A stretch of DNA of 64,000 nucleotides from Rufibacter latericius (GTDB lineage Bacteria > Bacteroidota > Bacteroidia > Cytophagales > Hymenobacteraceae): NCBI RefSeq assembly GCF_003721515.1, contig NZ_RJJD01000008.1:1-64000 (forward strand), given 5' to 3'. Positions 3,457 through 32,960 of the stretch are shown one piece after another. The notes under the pieces are model-generated. The model was not told where the DNA came from. It did no database searches and saw only the letters and a program-made list of their open reading frames with translations. The position numbers and the translations under genes were made by a program. Each line of letters starts with the position of its first letter. Positions within the stretch are counted from its first letter, which is position 1.

Positions 3457-3489
3457 TCTCAACCTGGGACAAATTTTCTCATTTTGGGA
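3457..3489 (+). promoter_or_regulatory. Tandem pair of 13-bp inverted repeats, candidate activator binding sites
   Basis: TCTCA-ACC-TGGGA at 3457-3469 and TCTCA-TTT-TGGGA at 3477-3489 are offset by exactly 20 bp, two helical turns, so both would face the same side of DNA. The same arrangement (TYYCA-N3-TGRRA, twice, 20 bp apart) occurs at 32928-32960, upstream of the EPS block. The layout resembles upstream activator sites of sigma-54 enhancer-binding proteins; one is encoded at 35543-36922. The link is inferred. Confidence 0.5.
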
Positions 3490-3605
3490 ATATCTAAAAT
3501 CTCCTGATCATCAAGTTTCACATTCTATTTAAAAGGAATATTTAAATTTTTTATCAGGAAAGGGATATTTTAGGATTATACACAAAAATGGTTCTCCAAA
3601 ATTTC

Positions 3606-3621
3606 TTGGCATGATTTTAAC
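3606..3621 (+). promoter_or_regulatory. Possible sigma-54-type promoter upstream of the UbiA gene
   Basis: TTGGCATGATTTTAAC has a full match to the -24 consensus (TTGGCAYG) and the right length. The -12 element is degenerate: AC instead of GC after the 10-base spacer. It starts about 125 bp downstream of the centre of the second inverted repeat, and would start transcription near 3633, about 100 bases before the ATG. Confidence 0.35.
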
Positions 3622-3730
3622 CTTTAAAACATCATAGTTAATATTCGAAAGTTTCATTTATCATCCTATACAATCTACGAAATCAAATAATTTGTAAATT
3701 CTATTTAAGCATAAATTCTAAAAACACGCT

Positions 3731-4750
3731 ATGTCTCAAACAGTTACCTTTCCAGAAACACCTACCCCTCAAGTGGTGCTAAGACCCGCCGGTTTTAAGG
3801 AGTATGTGGCCATTGCCCGACCTGATCATTGGTTCAAGAACATCTTCATGCTTCCGGGAATGCTCTTCGCCTTTATGGTGTATGACACTTCCCTTGATTT
3901 GACCTTATTGCTTAGGATTGTGATAGGTATTGTAAGTACCTGCCTCATAGCCTCGGCCAATTACACCATCAATGAATACCTGGATGCGGAGTTTGACCGC
4001 TACCACCCAGAGAAAAAGAAAAGATCAGCGGTAGTAACTGTATTAAGCCCTGTTTATGTCTATACTGAGTATCTATTATTGGTAGTTCTGGGCCTTTCCC
4101 TTTCCTATTTTATTTCGTTACCGTTCCTGGCTTTGGAGGCATTTCTGCTTTTCATGGGCATCATGTATAATGTGAGACCCTTCCGGACCAAAGAGCGGGT
4201 GTACCTAGATGTGTTGTCTGAGTCAGTTAACAACCCCATCAGGTTAGCTCTGGGATGGTTTATTTTTGTGCCTACCGCCCTTTTACCGGAAAGCATGCTG
4301 AACCCAATGTGGGCCTTTATTCCCCCAAGCAGCATCATTGTAGCCTATTGGATGGGCGGTGCCTTCCTGATGGCCACCAAACGTTTTGCGGAATACCGGT
4401 ACATCAACAATCCAGAGTTAGCGGGCCTGTACCGGAAGTCATTTAAGCGGTACACTGAGAACAGCCTGCTTATCTCCATGTTCTTCTATGCCATCACTTC
4501 TGCTTTCTTTTTGGGTATTTTCCTGATCAAGAACAAAATAGAGCTGTTAATTAGCTTCCCTTTCTTCGCCTTGCTCTTTGCCTGGTACCTACAGATTGGG
4601 TTGCGCAAAGACTCTGTGGTACAAGGCCCTGAAAAGCTACACAAAGAAACCTTCTTTATGCTTTATGTGGTGTTGTTCACCGGTCTTTTAATGGCGCTGG
4701 TTTACTTTGATATCCCTGCCCTGAATTGGTTCCTGAAGCAGTCCTTCTAG
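3731..4750 (+). CDS. UbiA-family prenyltransferase of the DPPR-synthase type (polyprenyl-phosphate phosphoribosyltransferase)
   Basis: A 339-residue polytopic membrane protein. Residues 77-98 carry the first Asp-rich motif NYTINEYLDAEFDRYHPEKK with N81, D85, D89 and the following R90, H92, P93 and K95. The D-R-x-H-P-x-K extension is characteristic of decaprenyl-phosphate phosphoribosyltransferases (mycobacterial Rv3806c type), where it handles PRPP, rather than of quinone or haem prenyltransferases. RPDHWFKN near the N-terminus and the later KRFAEYR and KRYTEN segments also fit that subfamily. The predicted reaction is PRPP plus polyprenyl phosphate to polyprenyl-phosphoryl-ribose-5-phosphate. 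It is followed after 59 bases by a GMC flavoprotein. The family call is firm, the substrate likely but not proven. Confidence 0.82.
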   Translation: MSQTVTFPETPTPQVVLRPAGFKEYVAIARPDHWFKNIFMLPGMLFAFMVYDTSLDLTLLLRIVIGIVSTCLIASANYTINEYLDAEFDRYHPEKKKRSAVVTVLSPVYVYTEYLLLVVLGLSLSYFISLPFLALEAFLLFMGIMYNVRPFRTKERVYLDVLSESVNNPIRLALGWFIFVPTALLPESMLNPMWAFIPPSSIIVAYWMGGAFLMATKRFAEYRYINNPELAGLYRKSFKRYTENSLLISMFFYAITSAFFLGIFLIKNKIELLISFPFFALLFAWYLQIGLRKDSVVQGPEKLHKETFFMLYVVLFTGLLMALVYFDIPALNWFLKQSF

Positions 4751-4809
4751 TCTTCCCTACTCCCTTTAGATATCATTAACCTCGGTCAAAGCAATTAACC
4801 TGTAAATTC

Positions 4810-6246
4810 ATGAAAGACACGTTTTACGATCTGGTGGTAATAGGCACTGGTTTCGCATCCACGTTTTTTCTGCATAAGTACCTGAGTAAAGCCCCGGCTA
4901 AAGCCAGAGTTCTTGTTTTAGAAAAAGGGCATTTTTTCCCGCATATGGAACGGGTAAAGGAAAGAAGGGGAGAAAAAACGCCTTATGCCAAACTGAACCC
5001 AGATGCCCAAGAAACATATGCTAATCTCACGCCAGAAAAGAGGTGGATGTTTACCCAAGGGTTTGGAGGCAGTTCTAACTGCTGGTATGGGTGTACTCCC
5101 CGTTTTATGCCATCAGATTTTAAGATGAAATCCTTGTACGGAGTGGCTAATGATTGGCCGCTCCAATACGAGGACCTGGATCCCTACTATTCCCAGGTGG
5201 AGGAACTCATGCATATTTCGGGTCCTGAGGCAACGCCTTTCCCCAAGAAATCACGGTATCCGCTTCCACCCCATGTGTTTACCACGGTAGACAAGATCCT
5301 GCACAAAGAATACGGCAATCTATACATCAACCAACCTACGGCCCGAGCCAGTGTAGCGGTGAACGGCAGAAATGCCTGCTGTGCCAGCGCTGTCTGCCAC
5401 GTGTGCCCAGTAAATGCCAAGTTCACGGTGGAGAATTCCAACATGGGAGTATATGACGATCCTCGGGTGGAAACGGTGTACGGCGCCCAGGTGTATAGCC
5501 TTGATCTGGAGCAAAACAAAGCCAGAAAAGCCAACTACACCAAAGATGGGAAAGAATACCATGTCTCAGCGGACATCTTTGCGCTGGGCACCAATGCCAT
5601 ATTCAACGCAAACATTCTCCTGAATTCCGGTGACACCAACCCGTTCACCGGGAAAGGACTGGGGGAGCAAGTGGCCCTGGAAGCATCGGTGTATCTGGAC
5701 AACTTGGAGAATGTGGGAGGAAGTACCTGGGTGAACGCCAACGGGTACATGTTATATGACGGCGACCACCGCAAAGACTCGGCTGCCTGCCTGATGGAGT
5801 CAAACAACGCGCCTTACATTAGGTTAGAACGCGGAAAATGGCGTCACATGATCAATTTCCGGATGATCTTCGAAGATTTGCCTGAAGCCCGAAACTTTGT
5901 ATCCACTACTTCTGACCGACTGAAACCAGCGGTCACCCACAAAGGGCCTTCAGAATATTCCATGAAAGGAATTGAGTACATGAAAGCCAAATTACCCGGT
6001 GTTCTGGCCTGCTTACCAGTAGAGAAAATAGAATACTCGCCTTTAATTGAATCTGAGGCCCATATTCTTGGCACCACCAGAATGAGCGCTAACCCAACCG
6101 AAGGGGTAATTGACAAACACCTGATCCACCATCAATACCGGAACCTGTTTGTCTTGGGAAGCGGCAGTTTTACCACTTTTACTCCGGCCAACCCTACCCT
6201 TACCTTATCGGCGCTGTCACTGCATGCGGCTGACAAGAGTTTTTAA
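4810..6246 (+). CDS. GMC-family FAD-dependent dehydrogenase, large subunit
   Basis: 478 residues without a signal peptide. The FAD site is LVVIGTGFAS (residues 9-18) with VLVLEKG ending the second strand. A Gly-rich GFGGSSNCWYG segment follows. The C-terminal GMC domain has the catalytic pair H418 (HILGTTRM) and N461 (PANPTLT). Cysteines C190, C191, C196 and C199 form a cluster like that of membrane-bound sugar or gluconate dehydrogenase large subunits, some of which bind an Fe-S cluster. The next gene encodes a small Tat-signal protein, the usual partner that carries such a subunit across the inner membrane. No cytochrome subunit is present. Next to a DPPR-synthase-like enzyme, oxidation of a lipid-linked pentose (DprE1-like role) is an attractive inference. 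Confidence 0.85.
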   Translation: MKDTFYDLVVIGTGFASTFFLHKYLSKAPAKARVLVLEKGHFFPHMERVKERRGEKTPYAKLNPDAQETYANLTPEKRWMFTQGFGGSSNCWYGCTPRFMPSDFKMKSLYGVANDWPLQYEDLDPYYSQVEELMHISGPEATPFPKKSRYPLPPHVFTTVDKILHKEYGNLYINQPTARASVAVNGRNACCASAVCHVCPVNAKFTVENSNMGVYDDPRVETVYGAQVYSLDLEQNKARKANYTKDGKEYHVSADIFALGTNAIFNANILLNSGDTNPFTGKGLGEQVALEASVYLDNLENVGGSTWVNANGYMLYDGDHRKDSAACLMESNNAPYIRLERGKWRHMINFRMIFEDLPEARNFVSTTSDRLKPAVTHKGPSEYSMKGIEYMKAKLPGVLACLPVEKIEYSPLIESEAHILGTTRMSANPTEGVIDKHLIHHQYRNLFVLGSGSFTTFTPANPTLTLSALSLHAADKSF

Positions 6247-6251
6247 ACAGG

Positions 6252-6266
6252 TTCCCAGAATGGGAA
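6252..6266. promoter_or_regulatory. Single 15-bp inverted repeat between the GMC and Tat genes
   Basis: TTCCCA-GAA-TGGGAA is a perfect 6-3-6 inverted repeat matching the TYYCA-N3-TGRRA pattern of the tandem sites at 3457-3489 and 32928-32960. It has no second copy 20 bp away, so it may be a chance match or a weak hairpin. Confidence 0.3.
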
Positions 6267-6315
6267 AGAAATAGCACCATCCTCTGAATGAGCTAGGGCA
6301 ATAATTAGTACCAAT

Positions 6316-6744
6316 ATGAACAGAAGAAACTTTCTAAGATTGACGGGCCTGGCCGGAGCGGCGATGGTAGCCTTACCGAGTCTGGGTTTTATGTCTACTT
6401 CCATCAAGGAAGCAGCCATAGGGGTGATTACCAAGGAACTGAGCTACCTTAAACTTGACAGGAAAGGAGTTGAGCAGTTCGTAGACGATTACTTTAAGAC
6501 CCATTATATTAATAACAGTCTCAAAACGCAGATTAACCTGAAGTCCTGTTATTACCTGGGCGTCAATGCCAATGATTCACGCCTGCTTTCAAAGCTGGTC
6601 CATAACTACATCACCTGTACAGACTTCTTCATCAACCGGATGGATGAAAGCAAAACAGTGAAATACATGGGCCTGAATAAATCTTATAAAATGCCTTGTA
6701 ACAACCCGTTCTCTTCTTTCTACTACCCAACCACAAGCGTTTAA
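6316..6744 (+). CDS. Small Tat-signal protein, likely accessory subunit of the GMC dehydrogenase
   Basis: 142 residues beginning with a twin-arginine signal: RRNFLR at residues 3-8, then the hydrophobic LTGLAGAAMVALPSL. The mature part is helical, about 110 residues, with CYYLGVNANDSRL and a C-terminal CNNPFSSFYYP. Size, Tat signal and position 69 bases after a GMC gene match the gamma/subunit-3 proteins of gluconate, fructose and glucose dehydrogenases, which escort the signal-less flavoprotein to the periplasm. I infer a periplasmic complex from the pair. Sequence identity to a named family was not established. Confidence 0.65.
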   Translation: MNRRNFLRLTGLAGAAMVALPSLGFMSTSIKEAAIGVITKELSYLKLDRKGVEQFVDDYFKTHYINNSLKTQINLKSCYYLGVNANDSRLLSKLVHNYITCTDFFINRMDESKTVKYMGLNKSYKMPCNNPFSSFYYPTTSV

Positions 6745-6777
6745 CCTAGTCACCAGGTTATCTTATCCATCAAAATG

Positions 6778-6799
6778 GTTTGGCAGAAAGTTGCCAAAC
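6778..6799. terminator. 8-bp hairpin after the Tat-signal gene
   Basis: GTTTGGCA-GAAAGT-TGCCAAAC is a perfect 8-bp stem 33 bases past the stop. No T-run follows, so its role as terminator is only possible. Confidence 0.35.
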
Positions 6800-6940
6800 G
6801 GTAAGTCAACACGAAAACACTAGTGTGACTTATTCGGGGAATATTGATGAAAGCCTCTAACAAGAAGCTCAGTTGAGACAGACCTACCTTAATTAAATCT
6901 TATAGAAAAAATTTATACACTATCAATCCCAGATGCAGCT

Positions 6941-8440
6941 ATGAGTATTCCGTCACTTTCATTTAAACAAGCGTTTACAGCCCAGAGCATCAATTATTAT
7001 AGTTTTTTAAATGAGTATTCTTCGCCGGAAAGGTATGCTGCCTCTCAATTAAAGTACAAGATCTTTTGCTGTGTGTGGGCCATTGCCTCCATCTTTCACA
7101 TGGCCAATTACAACGGGTTCACCCTGAACTTAACCTTTTTCCTCCTTACCAGCGCCGCCATCGGCCTCATCGCCAAGCCTTCTTCCATTGTAAGGCTGAT
7201 CATTTTCATCTCCATGCAGATGTTCCAGGCAACGTTGGATTTACCCGGAATAAGTAACCATTGGATGTTAACGGCTTTTGTCAATATTACCATCCTGCAT
7301 TCCTATGTCTACCTCATCATAAAAAGGAAAAGCTTTTACATTGACAAAGTTGAGTTTTTAAACACCTTTGCCCCACTGGTTAAAATAGAGCTGATCGTTC
7401 TGTACTTCTATGCGGTCTTCCATAAACTGAATGCCGGTTTCTTTGATGAGGAAGCAAGCTGTGCGGTGCGGTTTATTTTAATGCAGAACAATTACTACAA
7501 CATTTTGCCCTCAGATCAGGCATTGTTGTCCCTGAACATCTATGCTACCCTTATCTTAGAAGCGGCCATTCCCTTGATGCTTGTATTCAAAAGATTGCGG
7601 TATTGGGGAATCTTGGTAGGATTGGTATTCCACTTCATTATTGCCTATAACCCAATCAACGGCTTTTACGATTTCTCCTCTTTCGTTTTCGCCCTCTACT
7701 TTTTATTCACCAGCACTAGTTTCAGTTATAAGATCAAAACCTTGTACCAGAACTTCGTTCGTCGTAAAGGTGTCTTGAAGAAACAATTGCTGCAATTCAA
7801 CATCGTAAACTTTGTGCTTTTTACGGTTAGCCTCCTTTTCACCCTTTACCTGATCTATTATTACAACAAAGTTTTCCAGGACTATTTCCGTCACATTGTT
7901 TGGACCACGTATGGCTTAGTCTTCATCGGCATCTTTGCACTGTCCATGAACACCAAAGAAAAGGACAAAGAAAAAGAGACCAATCCATTTTCTTATGCTC
8001 ATTATTCACTTCTGCTTTTCCCTGTTTTGGTGTTCCTGAATGGCTTATGCCCTTATCTGGGTCTGAAAACCGAGTCTTCCTACACCATGTTCTCTAACCT
8101 AAGAACCGAAGGTGGAATCTCTAACCATTACATTGTTCCCGCCAGCTTGCAGATCTTTGATTATCAGAAGGATATTGTTGAGATTGTTTCAACCTCTGAG
8201 TACCACCTGAAGAATGTGAAGAAAGCAGACAAGCTCATGACCTTCTTTCAGTTCCGTAGGTTTGTGAGAACAGAAAGACCTGAATTTGTTACCTACAAAA
8301 GAAACGGAGTACTTAAAACTTTCGAGCTTGATAAGGCAACCGCCAATGATGAGTTATTACAGAAAGACAATTACTTACTGGAGAAACTCATGTACTACCG
8401 GTACTTCAACAAAAGCGGCGTTCAGGAGTGCGCGCATTAA
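6941..8440 (+). CDS. Multi-pass membrane protein, HTTM-like, copy 1 of a tandem pair
   Basis: 499 residues with roughly ten hydrophobic helices and a soluble tail of about 110 residues. The core NHWMLTAFVNITILHSYVYL, then YFYAVFHKLNAGFFDEEASC, resembles HTTM (horizontally transferred transmembrane) proteins related to vitamin-K-dependent gamma-carboxylase, which have a conserved Lys after the central helices (here in FHKLN). No thioredoxin or carboxylase domain is visible. The next gene is a clear paralogue of similar length and is colinear throughout. Its position after a UbiA/GMC/Tat group suggests a membrane-lipid or quinone-linked reaction, but no substrate can be named. The HTTM assignment is by resemblance only. 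Confidence 0.6.
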   Translation: MSIPSLSFKQAFTAQSINYYSFLNEYSSPERYAASQLKYKIFCCVWAIASIFHMANYNGFTLNLTFFLLTSAAIGLIAKPSSIVRLIIFISMQMFQATLDLPGISNHWMLTAFVNITILHSYVYLIIKRKSFYIDKVEFLNTFAPLVKIELIVLYFYAVFHKLNAGFFDEEASCAVRFILMQNNYYNILPSDQALLSLNIYATLILEAAIPLMLVFKRLRYWGILVGLVFHFIIAYNPINGFYDFSSFVFALYFLFTSTSFSYKIKTLYQNFVRRKGVLKKQLLQFNIVNFVLFTVSLLFTLYLIYYYNKVFQDYFRHIVWTTYGLVFIGIFALSMNTKEKDKEKETNPFSYAHYSLLLFPVLVFLNGLCPYLGLKTESSYTMFSNLRTEGGISNHYIVPASLQIFDYQKDIVEIVSTSEYHLKNVKKADKLMTFFQFRRFVRTERPEFVTYKRNGVLKTFELDKATANDELLQKDNYLLEKLMYYRYFNKSGVQECAH

Positions 8441-8529
8441 GAAACAGCTATTCTTAAGCAACTTCCTTTATCTATTCCTAACCAAGAGAAAGGGTTCTTT
8501 TTAGGGCCATTTTCTGAAAGTAAAACAAA

Positions 8530-8568
8530 ATCCATCCCGTAGCTAGGGCCTTCAGCTACGGGATGGAT
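8530..8568 (+). terminator. Strong 15-bp hairpin between the two HTTM-like genes
   Basis: The arms at 8530-8544 and 8554-8568 (ATCCATCCCGTAGCT and its exact complement) enclose a 9-base loop, 90 bases after the first paralogue. A short T-run (CTTTTG) follows at 8575-8580. It would separate expression of the tandem copies, or attenuate the second. Confidence 0.7.
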
Positions 8569-8635
8569 TCCACACTTTTGATCACATTCCCCCATTTCAC
8601 CCCAGAAACCCACCTGGGTTTTCATCTATCAAATC

Positions 8636-10126
8636 ATGGCCAGTACTTCTAACTCTTTAGAAAAAAAAATTACCGGGCAGAGAATCACCCAGGATAGCTT
8701 TTTTAAGGAGCCAGTTTCTCATGAAGAGTATACCCACTTCCAAGTAAAATATCGGGTTTTCTGTTGCTTGTGGGCCATTGCCTCCATTTTCCATATGGCA
8801 AACCACAACTCCTTCACCCTTAATCTTACCTATTTTTTATCAACCCTTACGGCTATCGCCCTACTGGCGAAGCCTTCGTCCATTGCAAGGCTCCTGGTCT
8901 TTGCCTTGATACAGATGTACCAGGCGTATTCAGAAATGCCTGACACTTCGAACCACTGGGTTTTAGCTGCCTTCATCAATTTAACCATCGTGCAATCTTA
9001 TCTGTACCTGGTGGTGAAGCGAAGAAGCTTTCACATTGACAAGGCCGAGTTTCTTAACACCTTTTCCCCTTTGGTCAATCTGGAGCTGATTACGCTTTAC
9101 TTTTTCGCTTTTTTCCATAAACTGAACTCGGGCTTTTTTGATCCGGCGGCTAGTTGTGCGGTCAGGTTCCTCGTCTTGCAAAACGACTATTACAATCTGT
9201 TGCCTACCAGCAAAGACGTTATCACCCTCAACATTTACCTAACCATCCTGATAGAAGCACTCATCCCTATTTTGATTGTTTTAGGGAGAACACGCCGCTG
9301 GGGCATCTTGCTGGGTTTGGTTTTTCACTGCATTCTCGCCTACAATCCCTTGAATGGCTTCTATGACTTTTCGGCTACTGTATTTGCTCTATATTTCCTG
9401 TTGACTGATGCAAGTTTTAGCGCCATAATTAAAAAAATCTACGGAAAACTACTTGAAGGGAAAAAGCTTATCAAAGAGCGCTTAGCTTCTTTCAATGTCC
9501 TGAACTTTACCTTATTCGCCGCCACATTAATAGTGATAATGGGGTTGGTGCACTACTATACCCGAACTGATGACTATTTCAGGCACTTAGTCTGGACGGG
9601 GTACAGTGTCACGTTTATCATCCTCTTCCTTCTGTCTTTGAAGACTAGTCGGCAAGAGACCCAAAGCAAAGTTTTTGCAGGGGCGCACTATTCCCTTTAT
9701 TTATTTCCGGTGCTTGTTTTTCTGAACGGCTTTTGCCCCTATTTGGGATTAAAAACCGAAACCTCCTATGCCATGTTCTCCAACCTTAGAACGGAAGGGG
9801 GCAAAACAAACCATTTCTTGGTACCGGTCTCTTCGCAGATTTTCAATTATCAAAAAGACGTGGTGGAGATCATTTCCTCCTCTGACCCTTTCTTCCAAAA
9901 ACTTGCTGCTGAGCAGAGACAACTAGTGTACTTCCAGTTCAGGAAATACGTCAGAAAGAATAAAGTCCAGCAGGTTACTTACCTCAGAAACGGACAGGAA
10001 TTCTCCTATGCCCGAGGCCAGTCATTTACAACACATGATTTGCAAAAGAAAGAGCACCCAGTCTTGGAAAAATTGATGTTGTTTCGGAATTTCTACAAAA
10101 GTGAAGTCCAAGGTTGCCTTCACTGA
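8636..10126 (+). CDS. Multi-pass membrane protein, HTTM-like, copy 2 of a tandem pair
   Basis: 496 residues, colinear with the preceding gene from KYRVFCCLWAIASIFHMAN to the C-terminal cysteine-containing end (VQGCLH versus VQECAH). The block LGLKTETSYAMFSNLRTEGG is almost identical to copy 1, and so are HKLNSGFFD and the NPLNGFYDFS segment. Conservation is strongest in the membrane core and in LKTExSYxMFSNLRTEGG, pointing to functional residues there; the N-terminal 30 residues diverge. The pair arose by tandem duplication and both copies are intact, so they may be partners or handle different substrates. A GAAACCCACCTGGGTTTTC palindrome lies at 8603-8621, just ahead of the ATG. Confidence 0.6.
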   Translation: MASTSNSLEKKITGQRITQDSFFKEPVSHEEYTHFQVKYRVFCCLWAIASIFHMANHNSFTLNLTYFLSTLTAIALLAKPSSIARLLVFALIQMYQAYSEMPDTSNHWVLAAFINLTIVQSYLYLVVKRRSFHIDKAEFLNTFSPLVNLELITLYFFAFFHKLNSGFFDPAASCAVRFLVLQNDYYNLLPTSKDVITLNIYLTILIEALIPILIVLGRTRRWGILLGLVFHCILAYNPLNGFYDFSATVFALYFLLTDASFSAIIKKIYGKLLEGKKLIKERLASFNVLNFTLFAATLIVIMGLVHYYTRTDDYFRHLVWTGYSVTFIILFLLSLKTSRQETQSKVFAGAHYSLYLFPVLVFLNGFCPYLGLKTETSYAMFSNLRTEGGKTNHFLVPVSSQIFNYQKDVVEIISSSDPFFQKLAAEQRQLVYFQFRKYVRKNKVQQVTYLRNGQEFSYARGQSFTTHDLQKKEHPVLEKLMLFRNFYKSEVQGCLH

Positions 10127-10180
10127 CAAAGGAAAAGAATCAAGGATTAAAGTTAACCTCTCACCATTGCTATTTAAAGC

Positions 10181-10216
10181 GTTTTAGGCCTGTTTTCACC
10201 AAACCGGGGCCTAAAC
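10181..10216 (+). repeat. 36-nt GTTT...AAAC intergenic palindrome
   Basis: A member of the dispersed 36-nt family. The outer arms TTTAGGCC (10183-10190) and GGCCTAAA (10208-10215) pair perfectly. It sits between the HTTM copy 2 stop and the next ATG, 15 bases before that start. Confidence 0.6.
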
Positions 10217-10231
10217 AAAAACAAGAATTTT

Positions 10232-11056
10232 ATGGAAAACTTAACCAGAGTGAACTCATCAAGGGTCTTTTCTTTCCTCCTGAAAATATTTGTGGGAGTG
10301 ATTATGATGAGCCTGATTGCCGTCACCTTAGACCACTATTTCAAGTTTATAGCCGTCAACCCGAAAATTGCCAATAGTTATACCTTCAGGACCTATCTGG
10401 TGGGAATGTTCGATTGCAATGGCGAAAAAAACATCCCTACCTACTTTTCCTTTATGAACCTCATCCTCAGCGCCGGCCTGTTGTTCACCATCGGGAAGGT
10501 GGTGAAAGAATCAGAAAAGCCAGGGTTCTACAAAAGATGGTACCTGATGGGTTTTCTGTTCATCTTCTTAGCCTTAGATGAATTACTGATGCTGCATGAA
10601 ATAATGGGGTTGCCCTTTATCTTTTTGATCAAGTACCTCAATCAAGGGAATGACATTTCTTTTGTCCGTTTCACCGGCTTCATCCCCTACTTCATAGTTC
10701 TCGTCTTTTCCTTTGTCTATTTTATCAACTGGTTCCTGGCGCTTCCCAGGAAAACCATGGTTGGCTTTGTTTTATCAGGAGGCATGGTTGTTTTTGGGGC
10801 TTTGGGTGTAGAAATGATTGGGGAGTTCCTGATGGGTTTATATGGCAAGTACAGTTATCCTTACAAAGTTGCCACTACCGTAGAAGAGTCCTTTGAGATG
10901 CTGGGAATCCTGTTCTTTATAAAGTTCCTGATAGATTACTTAGAAACCCAAAAGGATCTGATTACCCTTACTTTTGATTTAAGGAAAGATAAAAAGAGGC
11001 AGTTCAGTCCGGAAGGTGAAGTTCAGGCAACCCCCAGATCAAAGCAACTGATCTGA
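10232..11056 (+). CDS. Unrecognised membrane protein with DELxxLHE motif, copy 1
   Basis: 274 residues with about seven hydrophobic helices and a charged C-terminal tail of about 40 residues. I do not recognise the family. It is a paralogue of the gene at 11781-12623: both share GEKNIPTYFS in the first large loop, an intramembrane acidic/His motif (LDELLMLHE here, IDELFALHE there), and a late T-x-E-E-S-x-E-x-x-G motif. Those Glu/Asp/His residues within helices would suit metal binding or catalysis in the membrane. It follows the HTTM pair on the same strand, and the two family members converge on a GtrA gene. No function is assigned. Confidence 0.6.
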   Translation: MENLTRVNSSRVFSFLLKIFVGVIMMSLIAVTLDHYFKFIAVNPKIANSYTFRTYLVGMFDCNGEKNIPTYFSFMNLILSAGLLFTIGKVVKESEKPGFYKRWYLMGFLFIFLALDELLMLHEIMGLPFIFLIKYLNQGNDISFVRFTGFIPYFIVLVFSFVYFINWFLALPRKTMVGFVLSGGMVVFGALGVEMIGEFLMGLYGKYSYPYKVATTVEESFEMLGILFFIKFLIDYLETQKDLITLTFDLRKDKKRQFSPEGEVQATPRSKQLI

Positions 11057-11722: not shown

Positions 11723-11780
11723 AGGTGGTTGTGGATGGTGATGCTCCGGCTCCGGACGAATTACTGGTAAGTAATGGTCC

Positions 11781-16427: not shown

Positions 16428-16435
16428 CTGATTTC

Positions 16436-23092: not shown

Positions 23093-23140
23093 TTTGCTCT
23101 TGTTAATAGTAAGGATACCTCAGTACTTCTGCAGGTTCAT

Positions 23141-24349: not shown

Positions 24350-24372
24350 ATCCTGTACAGGTAAGTGGTAGA

Positions 24373-24462
24373 CTATTGGTCTTTTCTAAAGGCATTTAGG
24401 CCGCTGAAGAAACCTAACAACAGGAATAAAATGGCTGGGAATGCAAAAATTTCAAATGGCAT
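24373..24462 (-). CDS. Candidate 29-residue single-helix membrane peptide
   Basis: An ATG at 24462 opens MPFEIFAFPAILFLLLGFFS followed by GLNAFRKDQ and a TAG at 24373-24375. It is one hydrophobic helix of about 18 residues with a short basic tail, filling most of the 132-base gap between two membrane GT2 genes on the same strand. It lies 19 bases after the upstream gene's stop and 23 bases before the next ATG. The fit to an operon gap and the clean helix-plus-tail pattern favour a real small protein. There is no convincing ribosome site, so this is tentative. Confidence 0.4.
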   Translation of the reverse strand: MPFEIFAFPAILFLLLGFFSGLNAFRKDQ

Positions 24463-24481
24463 GTTCTTATAATTTAGAGGA

Positions 24482-25681: not shown

Positions 25682-25795
25682 GTGTGTTTTAAGCTTGTTT
25701 TAATCAAATCCGGCCAAAAGCGGTATTCCTTTTTTTGGCCACAAACTGCATTTATAATCTTTTATCTCATCTGGCAACAGCCTATGCTGAAGCAG

Positions 25796-26749
25796 CTATC
25801 CTGGTGAAGGCAGGGCCTCCTCTCTGGGAACCTTCCCAGACAAACTAGGCGTAACCTTGCTGTGGATGTTTCGGGCCGTTAGGTTCCACCATAGCCCCCT
25901 TGCTAATGCTTTTAAGTGTTTCCCCTCCCGCCTCAATCCAAATTCCAGCGCCTTCTTTGGGATGGCTGCCAGCAAGAAAATCAGCATGCTGGTCCATTTA
26001 GGTCCGCCGGTAATGTTCCTTCTGATAAATAGGAGACGGTTTCTGTTCATATAATAGGTTTTAAGCACCGAGGCTTTGCCCACTGAAACAGACTCTTTGT
26101 GGTACACCACTGAAGGAGCTACGTAATGACAGGTATAGCCTGCCCTTTTTATCATTTCGCACCAATCCAATTCTTCATAATACAGGAAGTAAACCTCTGG
26201 CATCAAACCCGCTTCTTTGATAATGCGCATAGGCACCATCATGGCGGCTCCATCTGCTAATACAGTTGGGCGGGAGGTGTCATGCTGTCCTTTATCCTGC
26301 TCCAGCTGCCCTATGGTGATGCTGCGGCCCGTCCAGGGATTGATGCCTGTAGAGCCGGCATACTGAAGCACGCGATCTGTCCCGTAGTAGATGATCTTAG
26401 GGGAAGCAATTCCAACTTTCCTATCCCGCTCGAAGAGTTCTACCAAAGGCTCCAGAAAATCGGGTTCCACCTCGGTATCGTTGTTCAGAAACAGGAGGTA
26501 ATCTCCTTCTGCCTGGGCTATTCCCAGGTTATTTCCCCCGGCAAACCCAACATTGACCGAAGACCTGATCAATTTCACCTCTGGGAATTGCTCCTTGATC
26601 ACCATTGGGTCATCGGTGGGAGAGGCATTGTCCACGACGATAATCTGCAGGTTTGGGTATGTTACTTTCCGAAGCGATGCCACCATTTCACAGGTTACTG
26701 CCGCTTGGTTGTAATTCACCGAAATAACTGACACCAAAGGCTTACGCAT
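25796..26749 (-). CDS. GT2 glycosyltransferase, rhamnosyltransferase-like (WbbL type)
   Basis: 317 residues. VSVISVNYNQAAVTCEMVASL, IIVVDNASPTDDP, VGFAGGNNLGIAQAEGDYLLFLNNDTEV and YEELDWCEMIKRAGY are the standard GT2 rhamnosyltransferase-type blocks; NND is the metal motif. The C-terminus (about 80 residues) is basic with one possible membrane-associated helix. Its ATG lies inside the polymerase gene: the 8-base overlap ATGCGTAA couples translation of the two. Confidence 0.87.
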   Translation of the reverse strand: MRKPLVSVISVNYNQAAVTCEMVASLRKVTYPNLQIIVVDNASPTDDPMVIKEQFPEVKLIRSSVNVGFAGGNNLGIAQAEGDYLLFLNNDTEVEPDFLEPLVELFERDRKVGIASPKIIYYGTDRVLQYAGSTGINPWTGRSITIGQLEQDKGQHDTSRPTVLADGAAMMVPMRIIKEAGLMPEVYFLYYEELDWCEMIKRAGYTCHYVAPSVVYHKESVSVGKASVLKTYYMNRNRLLFIRRNITGGPKWTSMLIFLLAAIPKKALEFGLRREGKHLKALARGLWWNLTARNIHSKVTPSLSGKVPREEALPSPG

Positions 26750-28199
26750 GAGCTTCTACCGGCTGAGCTTCTTTGTCAAGTTTAGGTCCCAGGAAGATAA
26801 ATGCCCACGAAATATAGATGATCATGGAAGAAGGCATCAGGTTCATGATCTCGTTACTATAACTACTGATGATAATACCGGTGTAGCCCGCTGTAAGTGC
26901 TGTGAGCTTGAATTTGAGTCCCTTGTCTTTGGTATTCCAAACGATGCCGCAACTTTTCCCGATGATGTACATCATCAAGCTGATCCAGATGATAAAGCCC
27001 GGTGTACCGAACTCCGCCCAGACCTTAACCCAGTAACTATCCGGCGGAATGGAAGCCAAATAGGTACCCTTGTTATAGTTACGTCCGGTAAACCCAATTG
27101 CTCCTACCCCACCACCAAACGGGTGACTGCTAAGGTACCTTTCAATCCTAGTCTGGTTTGTAAGGCGCAGGTTGAAAGAAGCATCGTGGGGCCGAAGCGC
27201 CGAACGCATCCTTCTGATTTCAAAGTGGCTTTGCCCAATGGAAGTGAACTTCAGAAAACAGAACCCCATCACCACAATGAGCAACGCCATGGAGGCAATC
27301 TTAAAATTTTTGGTGATGAACACGATTACGCCCAATCCGATAAAAATGGTGAAAATTGCACCCCGTGTTCCTGAGATAGATTCACCGTACAGAAAAGCCA
27401 TGGCAGCCAAACCGCAGAGAACTCTTTTCCATATTTTAAAGGGTCCGAAAGCCAATACCAGGGCGATTACGAAAAGGTGAGCCTGTGAAGCCCCAAACTG
27501 GCTGGCATCGGTGTAAAAAGAAAAGGCCCGTAACTCTCCAAAGATTAAGTGGGTCAGGTACCCCGAGGTGGTTAGCCACATTTGCTCCGCCGGGGTAAGG
27601 CCAAATTTCACCTGCTTCACCCCGTTCAGAGTAGCCAGTAAGGATAGCGCAATAATCAAGATCAGGAAAGTATTCAGGTCTTTCTGGGTATTGAAAATCA
27701 TGAGGCAAAGAGGCACCAAAAGCATCCAGAGTAAAGGATACCTGAAATCCAGCATCCACCCCATGATATTGGAACCAGCCGGGTTAAATAACTCAAGAAT
27801 GTAAATCAGCGTCCAGGCAAAGCCAAGTACACAGATCTCTTTGGTCAGATAGGACCAATCATATTGTTTAGTTGTGTGAAAAATGACCCCGAGCCAGGTA
27901 AGCCCAAGAAGGGCCTCCACCCCATAGATGTACGGATAACCACCACCTATTTCCCTGGCCAGTAGGTTAAATAGAAAGCAATAGATGACTAAGGCAATCA
28001 ACCCAACTTTAGGCTGCTTGAAGACGGAGTACAGAAAAGGAACAACCAGTAAAATGCAAAGCATTAAACCGGGCACAAGAAAACCTAACTGAGCGGTAAG
28101 CCAGCCTATTCCAATTGCAGTTAAAGCAATCAGGGGTAACAGTAAACTGAATACTTTTTTATCTGAAGAGATTTCAAGTTGCCTCATGGTGGTTCGCAT
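26742..28199 (-). CDS. O-antigen polymerase/ligase-like protein (Wzy)
   Basis: 485 residues, about eleven helices. The Wzy_C-type periplasmic loop is about residues 330-410 (HPFGGGVGAIGFTGRNYNKG, then PPDSYWVKVWAEFG), with Arg and His residues typical of these enzymes. It would polymerise flipped undecaprenyl-linked repeats in the periplasm. A 135-base intergenic region with two hairpins separates it from the chain-length gene upstream, whereas it overlaps the next gene by 8 bases. Confidence 0.85.
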   Translation of the reverse strand: MRTTMRQLEISSDKKVFSLLLPLIALTAIGIGWLTAQLGFLVPGLMLCILLVVPFLYSVFKQPKVGLIALVIYCFLFNLLAREIGGGYPYIYGVEALLGLTWLGVIFHTTKQYDWSYLTKEICVLGFAWTLIYILELFNPAGSNIMGWMLDFRYPLLWMLLVPLCLMIFNTQKDLNTFLILIIALSLLATLNGVKQVKFGLTPAEQMWLTTSGYLTHLIFGELRAFSFYTDASQFGASQAHLFVIALVLAFGPFKIWKRVLCGLAAMAFLYGESISGTRGAIFTIFIGLGVIVFITKNFKIASMALLIVVMGFCFLKFTSIGQSHFEIRRMRSALRPHDASFNLRLTNQTRIERYLSSHPFGGGVGAIGFTGRNYNKGTYLASIPPDSYWVKVWAEFGTPGFIIWISLMMYIIGKSCGIVWNTKDKGLKFKLTALTAGYTGIIISSYSNEIMNLMPSSMIIYISWAFIFLGPKLDKEAQPVEAHA

Positions 28200-28219
28200 T
28201 TGTACTCATCTTTTATCTG

Positions 28220-28236
28220 CTAACCCAGAGGGTTAG
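28220..28236. repeat. 7-3-7 inverted repeat upstream of the polymerase gene
   Basis: CTAACCC-AGA-GGGTTAG, perfect, 21 bases before the Wzy ATG on the minus strand. It lies directly next to the 11-bp hairpin at 28240-28281, so the leader could fold into two stems. Confidence 0.5.
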
Positions 28237-28239
28237 TTA

Positions 28240-28281
28240 AACCTTTCCCTCGCATTTGTGTGCCAAAGCAAGGGAAAGGTT
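28240..28281 (-). terminator. 11-bp hairpin between the chain-length and polymerase genes
   Basis: AACCTTTCCCT (28240-28250) pairs exactly with AGGGAAAGGTT (28271-28281) around a 20-base loop. No T-run follows, so partial termination, attenuation or mRNA processing is more likely than full termination. Confidence 0.45.
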
Positions 28282-28334
28282 CTCTGATAAAATATTGAAT
28301 TGAATATTATATGATTCTTGTTATATAACTCTTG

Positions 28335-30518
28335 TTAAACTGTTTCTAAAGCGGGCAGTCCTTTAGGAGAAGGAAGCACTTTCTGATCCTGGAGCATCTG
28401 CTTTGGTCTTACCACTACCATTTCTTTGGCATCCTCTGGTCGCACTGAGCTTAGGACTGTCTCTATTGGGGCATTGGTAACTTTCTGGATGTTTTCAAAC
28501 ATGGTTTTGTCTGACTGTTGCCAAACTCTGTTTGATTTCACCGTTAACAACACTAGGTCCAGGTGCTTGAACAGAGACACTGGGTATGTTTCCTCCAAAA
28601 GGGCCGGGAATTCTACCAGCACTACGGCGTTATTCAGATAGTCAAGTCCGGCTAAATCTGAAACCGAGGCATCTGTCAGTACTCCTTGCAGTGGCGAGTA
28701 GAAAGCATTATGTGCATCTGGACTTACCGAGCCTTTGTGGTTCTCTGGGTGCAGCACTTGCGTTTCGATTCCCATGGAGATCAGGTTATTGGCCAAGGCT
28801 CTGCAGAGGGCGGTTTTGCCTTCTCCTGACATGCTGCTCAACACACCTACCACGAAAGGATATGGTGAATCTTTTTGCTTCATCTTCAGAATCAGCTGGC
28901 GGGCAAGCTGGTCTTCAGCATTCTGAGCCAGAAGCAATTGCTTTGAACTTGAGCTCACTGCCGCTGGAAGAACTCCAAAAATGGGGTATTCCATTTTCTT
29001 TACTGCCACAGATGGCTTCCGCAATGAATCATCCAACAACTCACGGGCTAACAATACACCCAGGGTCAGGAAGAACACGCCAATCGAACCGAAGAGAATC
29101 AGGAGAATGCGGGTCATTTTTGCGGGGCTTCCTGGCAGATAAGCCGGGTCAATCACCTTCAATTGGGAAGCCAATTCAATGTTCTGTTGGTTCAGCTTGC
29201 TTTGGTTCAGACCTTCCAATTGCGCCAGGTAATCCTGCTCAGCCATGGTCACCTCGCGGGTAAGCTTTCTGTTCTCATCACCAAGCGGCATCAGCTTTGC
29301 ATATTCCTGGGTGTACTCAGAGCTTTGCTTGTCAACCAAGTTACGTTTGCTCTTAAGTTCTTCTAGTAAGAAAGTGGCTCTAACCCAGTCATTAAGCAAA
29401 TTGGGAGTTGGCAACCCTTGCACTGAGTGGGTGTTGTTGTAGTGCTTGTCCACGGAAGACATCATCTTTTTGGAAAGATCGTCTGCTTCCTTCTTTAAAC
29501 TAGCTAAGCGGCTGGCTTGCGGACCATTTGCATTTCCTTTGTTCAGCAGTTCCAGTTCTACAATCTCGGTTGTCACCTTAGAGAGTCTTCCTTTCAATTG
29601 AAGTACTTCCTGGCTGTAAAGGTTTGGAATACCTCTGTTTTTCAAGCTTTGCTCCAGAGACCGGAGGGTAGACAAGGCACCTGCATATTCTATTTCAAGG
29701 TCCTTTCCTTTAGCCACCAAAGAGCTCTTCTCACTTGTGGTGCTTCCAACCTGGGAATTGTAATCAATGATACCGTTCACCTGCTGGAACCGAAGCAGAC
29801 TTTCCTCCGCGTTCTTCAGTCTTTCCTGCGCTTTCTCTGTGGTTTTCACAAAGTGGTCCACAACTGACTCAGCCTGAGCAGTAAACAGTGTCCTATGCTT
29901 CTCAAACAATAACTTGGTAAGCATATCCAAGGTGTGCTTGCATTGGGCAGGATCTCTGAAGGTGTAGGTAACCTGCAACAGGTCACTGTCTCCCATCCGC
30001 TTAGATTCAAGGGCAGAAAAAGCGTCTGCCGAATACCCCAAATCACTGTTATAGATCACATCGCGGATAACGTTGTTCTGAGTTGCGTTGAAGTAGGCCG
30101 AAAGGTTCTTTGCAGTTTCCTCTACCGTTCCAGCCACCAGTCTGCTTCTTAAAGAAGCTGGGATCAACTCTTTCAGTTGGTTGTAGGCTTCTTCCCCAAT
30201 GATATTCGGGTCATGTGCCTTTAACATCAAGTGTGAAGCCAAGAGGCGGAAACCCAGTTCATCTCTCAGGTCTCTGGAATCAAGGATAGAGATTAAGTTC
30301 GCAAACCCGTCTTTGGTAGCCTTGTATTGGGTGCTGCTTTTAGTTACATCACTGATATTGTACCCGGATGCAATACCCGTGTAAATTGTAGTTCCTGATT
30401 TATATTCATCCACCTGATCTTTGGTAAAGAAGAAGATAGAGGCTGCCGTTACAGTAGTTACCGCAATCAGTAGGAACCAGTTCCGATTTATAAGTCTAAA
30501 GATGTCTGTGAGTTTCAT
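28335..30518 (-). CDS. Polysaccharide co-polymerase (Wzz/Wzc-like) with a degenerate tyrosine-kinase domain
   Basis: 727 residues. N-terminal Wzz domain with helix 1 at about residues 15-31, a long periplasmic coiled-coil region, and helix 2 (ILLILFGSIGVFFLTLGVLL) near residue 480. The cytoplasmic domain retains a P-loop, LSSMSGEGKTALCRAL. The Walker A' Asp motif is replaced (TQVLHPENH), the Walker B Asp is Glu (VVLVEFPA), and the C-terminal tyrosine cluster of BY-kinases is absent. It therefore probably controls EPS chain length without autokinase activity. It is coupled to the TolC-like gene by an ATGA overlap. Confidence 0.85.
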   Translation of the reverse strand: MKLTDIFRLINRNWFLLIAVTTVTAASIFFFTKDQVDEYKSGTTIYTGIASGYNISDVTKSSTQYKATKDGFANLISILDSRDLRDELGFRLLASHLMLKAHDPNIIGEEAYNQLKELIPASLRSRLVAGTVEETAKNLSAYFNATQNNVIRDVIYNSDLGYSADAFSALESKRMGDSDLLQVTYTFRDPAQCKHTLDMLTKLLFEKHRTLFTAQAESVVDHFVKTTEKAQERLKNAEESLLRFQQVNGIIDYNSQVGSTTSEKSSLVAKGKDLEIEYAGALSTLRSLEQSLKNRGIPNLYSQEVLQLKGRLSKVTTEIVELELLNKGNANGPQASRLASLKKEADDLSKKMMSSVDKHYNNTHSVQGLPTPNLLNDWVRATFLLEELKSKRNLVDKQSSEYTQEYAKLMPLGDENRKLTREVTMAEQDYLAQLEGLNQSKLNQQNIELASQLKVIDPAYLPGSPAKMTRILLILFGSIGVFFLTLGVLLARELLDDSLRKPSVAVKKMEYPIFGVLPAAVSSSSKQLLLAQNAEDQLARQLILKMKQKDSPYPFVVGVLSSMSGEGKTALCRALANNLISMGIETQVLHPENHKGSVSPDAHNAFYSPLQGVLTDASVSDLAGLDYLNNAVVLVEFPALLEETYPVSLFKHLDLVLLTVKSNRVWQQSDKTMFENIQKVTNAPIETVLSSVRPEDAKEMVVVRPKQMLQDQKVLPSPKGLPALETV

Positions 30519-31264
30519 TTGCTTTGTATTAAGTCGATTATTCTAGTTCCGATTGTTTCTTCCATCATTAAAAGCTGGGTCTCATAGTTGACCTTCGCTG
30601 TTTGTAAGGCGGTGGCAGTGCTGGTATAAGCCTGCTGCACGTTAGACATGGCGTCTATCATTATTTCGCCGCTTTTGAATTGTTTCTTGGCCAATTCCTG
30701 GCTTACTACTGCGGTTTGATAAGCTTGTTGCTGTAACTCCAACTGTGATTTTGCCAAAACCAGGTTCTGATACAAAGTGATCACGCGCATCCTTACCGCT
30801 CTTTCCGCCAGCTTTCTGCTGCCTTCCACTTGGGTAATGGCTAAATCCTGGTTCTTAAGGGTGTTATGGCGGCTAAGGAGCTGGCCTAAGGGCAAAGACA
30901 TGGAGAAACCCATAGAGTATCTGGCACGCAAGGGAGCGTCAAAGGCATTGAAGGAATTCACCGGCTCTCCGTTGGAATTCCAGTTATTCATACTTCCGTA
31001 GGTATAAGAGGAGTTGATGGAAAAGCCGCTATAGAAATTTTTACGGATAATCTTTTTCTGTTCAATAGATGCCAGTTTAGCGGCTTCTGCATTCTCTAAC
31101 TCTGCTGAATTGGCAATGGCTGTTTCAATCAAAATGGGCAGGGCATATTCTGAATTGAAGAGCTTCTTTTCCCAATCGGCTCCTTTAGCAGGGGCAGTTT
31201 GGGCTGAGGCCACCAGACCATACAGGGCCAAAAAAAGTGCAAGCGAAAGTTTTTTCATATTCAT
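30515..31264 (-). CDS. Half-size TolC-like outer-membrane protein
   Basis: 249 residues with a signal peptide (KKLSLALFLALYGLVASAQ). IETAIANSAELENAEAAKLASIEQKK is a TolC-type helix start; then a beta-hairpin-like block with YSMGFSMSLPLGQLL; then long helices (LAERAVRMRVITLYQNLVLAKSQLELQQQAY and KSGEIMIDAMSNVQQAY). Normal TolC proteins have two such repeats and about 420-490 residues; this has one. No Wza/OPX gene is present in the locus, and the 4-base overlap with the co-polymerase gene suggests this protein is its outer-membrane or periplasmic partner. That role is inferred. Confidence 0.7.
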   Translation of the reverse strand: MNMKKLSLALFLALYGLVASAQTAPAKGADWEKKLFNSEYALPILIETAIANSAELENAEAAKLASIEQKKIIRKNFYSGFSINSSYTYGSMNNWNSNGEPVNSFNAFDAPLRARYSMGFSMSLPLGQLLSRHNTLKNQDLAITQVEGSRKLAERAVRMRVITLYQNLVLAKSQLELQQQAYQTAVVSQELAKKQFKSGEIMIDAMSNVQQAYTSTATALQTAKVNYETQLLMMEETIGTRIIDLIQSK

Positions 31265-31270: not shown

Positions 31271-32437
31271 TTAAACATTTTCTTTTTGAAACATTGCTGG
31301 TACAGTCTTGAGCAGGATGTATAAGTCTTTCTTCATTGAGAACTTTCGGGCATATTCTATATCCAATGCCTTGCGCTCCTCCTCTGACATGTTCTTTTTA
31401 CCTCGCTTGCTTACCTGCCATAAACCAGTGATCCCGGCAGGGGCAATAAAACGGGCTGCATATTCGTCTGTGGTTATTTTTTCAGCCTCATAGATGGGAA
31501 GAGGCCTGTTTCCTACAATGGACATGTCTCCCCGTAAGACATTATACAATTGTGGTAATTCATCGATGCTGGTGTTGCGAAGGAACAGCCCCAGGCGCGT
31601 TACCCTTGGATCATTCGCGATTTTGATGAAGGCAGGACCAGTCTTCGTTTTCTTTGATTCTATGTATTGTTGTTCACAGATGATTTTACCTTGTTCGTCA
31701 ATCAACTTGTTAGCGCACTCCAGGCTGCCTCCCGCACAGGCGGTACAAAGGGTAAACCCCTCCACATTGAATTCCTTGGCAGGCGCCTGGTACTGGTTGA
31801 AGACCTTGATAGAGTCCAGTAGTTGGTCTGCATCTTGTCGCATGGACCTGAATTTCCAGAATTTAAAGATCTTAAATCCCGTACCCACCCGATAAGAGTA
31901 ATAGAAGGCCGGTCCTTTTGATTCCAGCTTAATCAATAGCGTGATAATCAGCAAAATTGGAGAAAGACAAAGAAGCGCAACAGAAGCTACAACAATATCA
32001 AATACTCTTTTCCCTAAAGGGTATCTGTATGCATAAGCATTCTCAATACTTGATTTTGTCTCCATTCTTTTGGCTTGGGCTAAGTAATTGATTCTGGTAA
32101 TTAGCTTTTCCTGATCAGGCTTTTGGCAGAAGATATCTGACACTCCTGCTGCCATTAACATTCTCTGCAAGGTGGGAGGAACTGGGCTATTGGCTAACCA
32201 GATCACAGGAGTAGAAACCGTGTATTTCTCTTTAATTGCCCTTAACAAATTGATGCCTAAAGGAGATCCTGGTGACGCAGCATTTATTATTATATGGTAC
32301 TGATCGCCTCTTTCCAGTGATTGTAAGAAAAGCTTAGGGTTGCCAAAATGCTTTATCTCTATACTCTGACCAAACTCCGATTTAAACCCATCTGCTTCCT
32401 GCGTGTCCGGTGATAGAAAAACAACCCTCATCCCCAC
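31271..32437 (-). CDS. Pseudo-receiver fused to an initiating sugar-phosphate transferase (WcaJ/WbaP-type PGT)
   Basis: 388 residues. Residues 1-115 fold like a response-regulator receiver (final Lys K106 in FCQKPD) but have Asn52 (IIINAASPG) in place of the phosphoacceptor Asp. Residues 140-388 are a bacterial sugar transferase: membrane helix 145-170, KFWKFRSM, catalytic D292-E293 in [16 protein letters not shown], and [12 protein letters not shown]. It loads the first sugar-1-phosphate onto undecaprenyl phosphate. An insert with C231, C234, C241 and C254 may bind zinc. The next gene upstream is a free CheY-like receiver, 6 bases away. Start at 32437 or, two codons later, 32431. Confidence 0.88.
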
Positions 32438-32443
32438 TTCTCC

Positions 32444-32824
32444 TTAAGATATCTTTACTCTTTTAAGAACATTTTTTATTCTTATTTCAAGCTCCTCTGG
32501 ATTAAAGGGTTTGATCATATAATCATCTGCTCCACTCCTAAGGCAAAGGATTTTGTTTCTTGACTCCTCTTTTCCAGATAACATTATCAAAGGAATATCT
32601 TTGAATAAAGTGCTGGCTCTTAGCTGTTTGATAAAATCCAAACCATTCATAAAAGGCATTTCAAAATCAGCAACAATGGCATCAATGTGATGTCCTTCTT
32701 CCAACCAAGCCATGGCTTCTTTTCCATTTGATTTTACTACAACCTGATAGGCTTTGGAGAAGTAATGTTCCAGTATCAATCCTATGGTAGGCTCATCGTC
32801 CACAATTAATATACACTGTTTCAT
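32444..32824 (-). CDS. CheY-like single-domain response regulator
   Basis: 126 residues, receiver only. The acidic pair lies in ILIVDDEP, the phosphoacceptor is D53 in IVADFEMPFMNG, the switch Ser is in MLSGKEES, and the Lys is K105 in YMIKPF. There is no output domain, so it must act by protein contact. It is the first gene of the EPS run and lies 6 bases from the pseudo-receiver/PGT fusion, suggesting it signals to that protein or relays phosphate from the HPt of the 33379-35259 product. Confidence 0.9.
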   Translation of the reverse strand: MKQCILIVDDEPTIGLILEHYFSKAYQVVVKSNGKEAMAWLEEGHHIDAIVADFEMPFMNGLDFIKQLRASTLFKDIPLIMLSGKEESRNKILCLRSGADDYMIKPFNPEELEIRIKNVLKRVKIS

Positions 32825-32848
32825 TTTTATCTTTTTTATAAATACTAT

Positions 32849-32864
32849 GAAATTACCGTGCCAA
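32849..32864 (-). promoter_or_regulatory. Possible sigma-54-type promoter of the EPS block
   Basis: On the minus strand, TTGGCACGGTAATTTC has a perfect -24 element (TTGGCACG) and the correct 10-base spacer, but TC instead of GC at -12. Transcription would start near 32838, about 14 bases before the receiver-gene ATG. The candidate activator sites lie 70 and 90 bp further upstream. Confidence 0.4.
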
Positions 32865-32927
32865 TATTGTTTTTGTATTAAAATTTAGTAGCAGAGTATA
32901 ATTTATACAGTTTCCTTGCTATGCTTA

Positions 32928-32960
32928 TCCCATTTTGGGAATACCGGTTCCAATCTGGGA
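32928..32960 (-). promoter_or_regulatory. Tandem pair of 13-bp inverted repeats, candidate activator binding sites
   Basis: TCCCA-TTT-TGGGA (32928-32940) and TTCCA-ATC-TGGGA (32948-32960) are offset by exactly 20 bp, as at 3457-3489. The first is a perfect inverted repeat. Distance to the -24-like element fits enhancer sites of a sigma-54 activator. Confidence 0.55.

Follow-up and report, generated by a model that had tools for sequence, protein, structure and literature searches.

The first 64,000 nucleotides of contig C23 of the Rufibacter latericius genome (G000; 5.67 Mb), referred to here as the window, contain two promoter regions built alike: a pair of short palindromes 20 bp apart, followed by a core resembling the -24 element of a sigma-54 promoter. 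One region lies upstream of ubiA and the other upstream of an exopolysaccharide (EPS) operon. The paired 20-bp sites are real and conserved. Judging from the sequence, they likely mark a dedicated regulon of two promoters within one EPS cluster, of the sigma-54 type with a non-consensus -12 element and under an enhancer-binding protein (EBP). In this regulon an NtrC-type activator encoded in the cluster (EBP, 35543-36922), probably phosphorylated via two adjacent hybrid kinases, would bind as two dimers on TCCCA-N3-TGGGA palindromes paired at the 20-bp offset. Acting at a fixed distance, it would activate RNA polymerase-sigma-54 at a TTGGCAYG -24 element, and the EPS operon (leftward from 32824) and the ubiA unit (rightward from 3731) would be turned on jointly.

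The ubiA-side pair (3457-3489, forward strand) consists of TCTCAACCTGGGA (3457-3469) and TCTCATTTTGGGA (3477-3489), and the EPS-side pair (32928-32960, reverse strand) of TCCCATTTTGGGA (32928-32940) and TTCCAATCTGGGA (32948-32960). An earlier, sequence-only reading of this DNA had reported TYYCA-N3-TGRRA sites at 3457/3477 and 32928/32948, each pair offset by 20 bp, and its coordinates were confirmed. Four lone matches to the same consensus, which it did not mention, are found in the window at 5436, 6253, 24161 and 29744. The site at 6253 (TCCCAGAATGGGA) was taken as a chance match because the clusters of relatives have no high-scoring site at the corresponding place.

Conservation was examined in 16 Rufibacter genomes, G000 included. 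Close orthologues of ubiA, the EPS sugar transferase gene and the EBP gene are all present in nine of them (EBP identity 82-100%). A tenth genome, G004, has an EPS orthologue (56%) and the EBP (70%) and no ubiA orthologue; these ten are the EBP holders. The six non-holders have orthologues of none of the three, and their top EBP match is at most 48% identical. We built a half-site matrix from the 18 ubiA and EPS pairs of the nine genomes, all of which score at least 24. Scored with this matrix, a 20-bp pair was found at both promoters in 9/9 genomes with all three genes, window genome included, so that the conservation in relatives for which the sequence-only reading had asked is borne out. 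The strict consensus was matched in both halves at 8 of the 18 promoters: the ubiA pairs matched in both halves in 4/9, in one half in 3/9 and in none in 2/9 genomes, and the EPS pairs in both halves in 4/9 and in one half in 5/9. G004 has a 20-bp pair at its EPS genes, and G011 and G002 have a second pair ahead of ubiA, likewise with a 20-bp offset. When the matrix was trained on EPS pairs, a ubiA-side 20-bp pair was within the four best pairs in 9/9 genomes (the distal one in G011 and G002). When it was trained on ubiA pairs, the EPS pair was within the four best in 8/9 (G002 missing) and also in G004. Since training on either side recovers the pairs of the opposite side, the conservation is not circular.

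To estimate chance expectation, we used 200 first-order Markov resamplings of the window. Lone consensus sites were expected at 2.2 per 64 kb, compared with 8 observed, and no consensus pair at offsets 13-59 occurred in any resampling. Looser matching by matrix gave 0.095 pairs per 64 kb when every offset was counted, and none with the 20-bp offset. Applied to the clusters of 10 genomes (406,692 bases), the matrix found 20 pairs with the 20-bp offset; between 13 and 60, pairs otherwise occurred just at 34 (2 pairs) and 54 (4 pairs), and G011 and G002, with their tandem pairs, hold sites at these spacings. The EPS pair of G002 is one more known pair, which falls under the per-half threshold and so stands outside the count of 20.

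A pair profile (R1), made from sequence only with 42 rows from 21 pairs, was then run on both strands of each genome. Its E-values are rough, and 150 first-look candidates were fully scored per genome (in G000, 150 of 2808). Only two places in G000 had E≤10, and both are the window pairs. As the training genomes match by construction, the informative part of this result is that G000 has no further places. The sequence-only reading had proposed such a genome-wide scan and named paired sites at chance frequency as the outcome that would refute it. The scan gave few matches, in G000 just the ubiA and EPS promoters; a chance origin is contradicted by the resamplings. A single palindrome is not specific, since the exact string TCCCAWWWTGGGA, whose one occurrence in G000 is at the EPS pair, is found in non-holders too: it is at the EPS pair in 6/10 holders and occurs four times elsewhere in holders, and three of the six non-holders have it, at four places in all. 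G004 also has a lone perfect TCCCAAAATGGGA at about 11319 of locus L105 (G004:C8:186318), ~21 kb from its EPS pair; no strong -24/-12 match was found within 300 bp of it.

The gap between pair and core is 63 bp at EPS in 9/9 genomes, and at ubiA it is 116, 117, 117, 119, 116, 117, 117, 119 and 116 bp in the nine genomes. Mean pairwise identity is 0.78 (EPS) and 0.68 (ubiA) for the pairs and 0.90 and 0.84 for the cores. The spacers between them are only 0.58 (EPS) and 0.56 (ubiA) identical, compared with 0.54 for shuffled spacers. Other distances vary: in the ubiA region the core lies 60-161 bp from the ATG and the pair 187-279 bp from the stop codon of the upstream HAD gene, and in the EPS region the pair lies 226-418 bp from the upstream stop codon, with a tighter core-to-ATG distance of 31-41 bp. 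A gap that stays fixed across near-shuffled spacers while other distances vary means that pair and core keep a constant spacing. In G011 and G002 the second ubiA pair is 171 and 173 bp from the core, respectively, and the EPS pair of G004 is 106 bp from its TTGGCACA. We infer that gap steps of about 43, 54 and 108 bp (63, 106, 116-119, 171-173) would keep the sites on one helix face. For sites in other genera, the nearest TGGYA is 66 (G025), 73 (G032), 74 (G036) and 92 bp (G024) away, and these distances follow no single step. The 63-bp EPS spacer (32865-32927 and its counterparts in relatives) contains a TTATACTCT-like block followed by a TTTAATA-like block. Both are partly conserved, possibly as a bend or as another factor's site.

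The -24-like core on the ubiA side is TTGGCATGATTTTAACC (3606-3622, forward strand), 116 bp past the pair; that on the EPS side is TTGGCACGGTAATTTCA (32848-32864, reverse strand), exactly 63 bp past the pair. The TTGGCAYG that had been described downstream of each pair is there, as TTGGCATG beginning at 3606 (+) and TTGGCACG beginning at 32864 (-). All 18 cores read TGGCAYG and then R, so that each has the GG of a -24 element, and RpoN is encoded with its three domains. A sigma-A promoter was rejected as a candidate: the TAnnTTTG -7 box is absent between pair and start codon in 18/18 promoters. As controls we used the groES and grpE promoters, located by family search in nine genus genomes (G004 and eight of the nine three-gene genomes, G009 being left out). 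Both genes are listed under a sigma-54-like motif with -24/-12 elements in Flavobacterium psychrophilum (PMC9723704). Their elements in Rufibacter are TTGGCACARGAATCGCT (GGCA in one genome) and TTGGCAAAATAGTTGCC-type. The canonical sigma-54 pattern TTGGCAYGRWWWTTGCW was found nowhere in 10 genomes; it is too strict to be informative, because the groES and grpE elements have the -12 GC yet do not fit it. The groES and grpE loci (L260-L268, L272-L280) have conserved upstream repeats of their own, CTGACAAAAT-like and ATGCCAGAATGACATAAAA-like, which other EBPs probably bind. A search for the groES promoter next to two other EBP types gave no high-scoring element shared by the genomes.

The proposed binder of both pairs is encoded at 35543-36922 on the reverse strand. 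It has a receiver, an AAA+ sigma-54 interaction domain with GAFTGA and a C-terminus like a helix-turn-helix (HTH). The first two were matched by PF00072 and PF00158; GAFTGA and the HTH-like end were read from alignment, and no separate HTH model matched. By sequence, this protein qualifies as a bacterial EBP of the NtrC type. The sequence-only reading was right to place a GAFTGA-bearing EBP here. Two kinase genes adjoin it on the same strand: a histidine kinase with HisKA, HATPase, receiver, Hpt and sub-threshold PAS domains (33379-35259) and a hybrid histidine kinase with HisKA, HATPase and receiver domains (37482-39545). Two adjacent kinases, one of them with Hpt, suggest a phosphorelay, in which the first would be the partner of the EBP and the second a sensor of the same relay.

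In all 10 EBP-bearing genus genomes the best R1 match has an E-value of 0.00013 to 0.008. Of the six genomes that lack the EBP, four gave nothing and two gave one place each at E ~0.6, so that none is below 0.5. Weak extra matches (E≤10) were seen in four holders: G015 (0.21), G003 (0.70, 0.78 and 2.1), G002 (2.4 and 3.9) and G010 (2.5 and 2.6). This co-occurrence, together with the sites beside EBP homologues described below, makes the window EBP the best candidate binder of the pairs.

Outside the genus we considered 18 loci of EBP homologues (≥41% identity over most of the protein), 16 of which were read over 16-20 kb. A near-perfect palindrome lies within ~300 bp of the EBP gene in 6/16 regions (G020, G024, G025, G032, G036 and G045), with best scores of 17.9-19.3; in window-like sequence, 0.125 sites per 64 kb would be expected to score ≥17. 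G024 and G025 have a 20-bp pair, and in G045 a second site follows 28 bp on from the palindrome. In G025 (L234, 10950-13075) the pair precedes a Por_Secre_tail gene (type IX secretion tail), which is transcribed away from the EBP gene, and sites are similarly placed in G024, G032 and G036. Such strong sites were not found in the other ten regions (G017, G022, G030, G031, G033, G034, G035, G042, G044 and G054); the weaker ones of G042 and G054 lie away from the EBP gene. The loci of G047 and G051 have no site of score ≥14 in ~4 kb. Three genomes that lack a close EBP (G023, G026 and G027) have no sites in their EPS-orthologue regions.

Among 22 further Bacteroidota loci, three (L149, L156 and L165) have a site of score 14.9-16.6 at most 500 bp outside the EBP gene. 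A set of 57 EBP loci (L168-L224) gave three pairs, all in its five Bacteroidota members (L171, L180, L196, L198 and L208), and no pair in the remaining 52 loci, which are of other phyla. In two Paraprevotella loci (L180 and L196, at 13048) related palindromes form a 20-bp pair, which lies 1.8 kb past a more distant EBP homologue, and one Bacteroidales locus has a pair at offset 21. The Paraprevotella pairs suggest that this geometry extends more widely through Bacteroidota. R1 gave a match at E≤1 in 13 of 39 genomes outside the genus, mostly at chance level. G024 has one match (E 0.033), beside its EBP, and G045 has two (G045:C1:1255014 and 2560432; E 0.004 and 0.008), which lie away from its EBP homologue.

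Several observations weigh against a sigma-54 regulon governed by this EBP. The GC expected ten bases after the GG is missing: G occurs at that position in 0/18 promoters. The -12 reads TTTCA at EPS (TTTC, not TTGC, in the window) and TNAMC at ubiA, and in G004 it reads TCCCC, likewise without GC. The groES and grpE promoters, in contrast, have the -12 GC in 18/18; as they keep it, the departure belongs to the EPS/ubiA regulon and not to the genus. EBP homologues that are 56-58% identical (G017, G022, G030 and G034), and that of G042, have no strong adjoining site, and in G020 the EBP homologue, which lies elsewhere, is accompanied by a site, yet the EPS and ubiA genes are not. Finally, genome counts are not independent events: because the EBP, the EPS genes and the pairs move together in a single cluster, their co-occurrence may reflect few events. 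The sequence-only reading had called the -12 elements weak and proposed a sigma-54 regulon. Weak they are, and beyond that consistently non-consensus; the regulon is supported by RpoN, the -24-like core and the few conserved pairs, and not by the -12 GC.

We regard the conserved -12 without GC as part of the pattern, and the EPS and ubiA promoters as probably sigma-54 dependent. A non-consensus -12 was seen in those E. coli promoters for which there is evidence of activator-bypass transcription, and altering the -12 raised bypass in earlier work cited in the same study (PMC4551910). By analogy with them, a leaky sigma-54 promoter would be a fair reading. A bolder idea, which we put forward tentatively and hold to be possible but less likely than not, is that in one class of sigma-54 promoters controlled by EBPs, selection has replaced the -12 GC by position-locked paired enhancers; EPS would then have a basal activator-independent level that is raised by the EBP, as opposed to a strict off state. 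It is rather unlikely that the EBP binds the pairs at a promoter that is not standard sigma-54, where TTGGCAYG would be half of a promoter, or else a site for some other factor, and initiation would follow a different or partly activator-independent route. The missing GC and the E. coli bypass promoters would fit such a promoter. However, GAFTGA is described as the defining motif of sigma-54 activators (PMC12316311), TGGCA is invariant across all 18 cores and 18 groES/grpE promoters, and the sigma-A box is lacking.

Ranked after this, and improbable, is binding of the palindromes by another protein, such as a repressor or some other EBP. G000 has 10 EBP-family matches among the matches listed, and the pair-profile matches of G045 away from its EBP homologue would agree with another binder. 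Against it, the window EBP and the pairs share their distribution in the genus, and the sites adjoin EBP homologues in other genera. Moreover, two other G000 EBPs have matches of similar range and identity in pair-less genomes, among the matches listed, and groES and grpE carry different repeats. There is next to no probability that the pairs match by chance or are neutral leftovers of common descent: lone half-sites do arise randomly, about 2 per 64 kb, but pairs did not in 200 resamplings, and the sites are conserved between flanks near shuffled identity, with the spacing locked in 9/9.

In the proposed EBP regulon, the EPS operon begins with a stand-alone receiver protein (32444-32824) and a polyprenyl-phosphate sugar-1-phosphate transferase (Bac_transf; 31271-32437), followed by the rest of the cluster (11312-31264), all on the reverse strand; operon extents here and below are estimated from strand and packing. 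The stretch 11312-31264 encodes outer-membrane efflux-type, Wzz-type chain-length and Wzy-type proteins, a flippase-type polysaccharide exporter, glycosyltransferases, a pyruvyltransferase and a GtrA/DPMS-type protein. The ubiA unit and the EPS cluster are ~24-29 kb apart in the seven genomes in which one contig spans both, and on different contigs in G009 and G010. At this distance they look like one cluster. The claim of a regulon joining the UbiA and EPS loci therefore stands in that both promoters share pair and core, and fails in that these look like one cluster rather than two separate loci. Beside the EPS cluster, at 43248-53843, is a polysaccharide-use locus with a hybrid two-component regulator, a SusC/SusD-type pair and a GH130-type phosphorylase.

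The first gene past the ubiA-side promoter encodes a UbiA-family prenyltransferase (3731-4750, forward strand), whose nearest models, below cut-off, are of decaprenyl-phosphate phosphoribosyltransferase. The likely rest of the unit (4810-11056, forward strand) encodes a GMC-type oxidoreductase (4810-6246), a short protein whose Tat-signal match narrowly misses the cut-off (6316-6744) and three open reading frames without a confident Pfam match (6941-8440, 8636-10126 and 10232-11056). The promoter region separates ubiA from a HAD-family phosphatase gene (2501-3205, forward strand). The phosphatase, UbiA and the oxidoreductase (2501-6246) suggest formation of a polyprenyl-phosphate sugar donor for the EPS cluster.

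We compared nine strongly matching ubiA copies from outside the genus, leaving out seven weaker UbiA matches. A HAD-type gene is upstream of ubiA in 9/9, and in 8/9 the two frames overlap by 4-32 bases when the most upstream ATG is taken as start. The exception is one of the two ubiA copies of G026, with a 377-bp gap that contains no consensus site. In the nine Rufibacter genomes the gap is 396-589 bp, with pair and core inside. The promoter region thus appears to have been inserted into an old HAD-ubiA gene pair, a direction of change read from the outgroups. This suggests a route by which a promoter region placed between formerly overlapping genes lets a neighbour take control of one of the two.

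The usual view is that DNA looping leaves sigma-54 activators free in their distance from the promoter, and that the promoters they act on have a -12 GC. Here the distance is held within a few bases over diverged spacers and the GC is consistently avoided, while the chaperone promoters keep it. Both rules become testable in one small regulon, and EPS control in Bacteroidota gains a concrete candidate regulator, site and target set. No description of the motif or the regulon was found in the open-licence PubMed Central literature.

Three known systems resemble the proposed regulon. Desulfovibrio DVU0110 and DVUA0057 are GAFTGA response regulators with EPS/biofilm target operons (PMC4641369). 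They belong to another phylum, and the sigma-54 consensus reported for them keeps tTGCt; the likeness is one of GAFTGA and target operons. The SM4 regulon of F. psychrophilum is from Bacteroidota and includes groES and grpE with typical -24/-12 elements, as in Rufibacter; the selection of genes listed for it names no EPS operon, and the Rufibacter EPS/ubiA -12 departs (PMC9723704). The third is the PrsK/PrsR PEP-CTERM system, in which an NtrC-type response regulator is found beside a kinase and EPS genes, and one site, sometimes repeated, lies upstream of a -24/-12 promoter at a mean of 62.8 nt (PMC1569441). There, motif 1 ends TTTACA and motif 2 conforms to GG/GC, unlike the TCCCA-N3-TGGGA and departing -12 of Rufibacter. 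TIGR02915 is the best NCBIfam match of the window EBP, at 382.6 bits, below the cut-off of 502.6. Exosortase does not appear tied to the EBP (7/10 holders and 3/6 non-holders; the G000 copy is on another contig, C14). PEP-CTERM membership (PrsR, TIGR02915) was rejected on the TIGR02915 score. The Rufibacter EBP is not PrsR by score and its site differs, and by analogy the regulon would work like PrsR-type control of a surface polymer.

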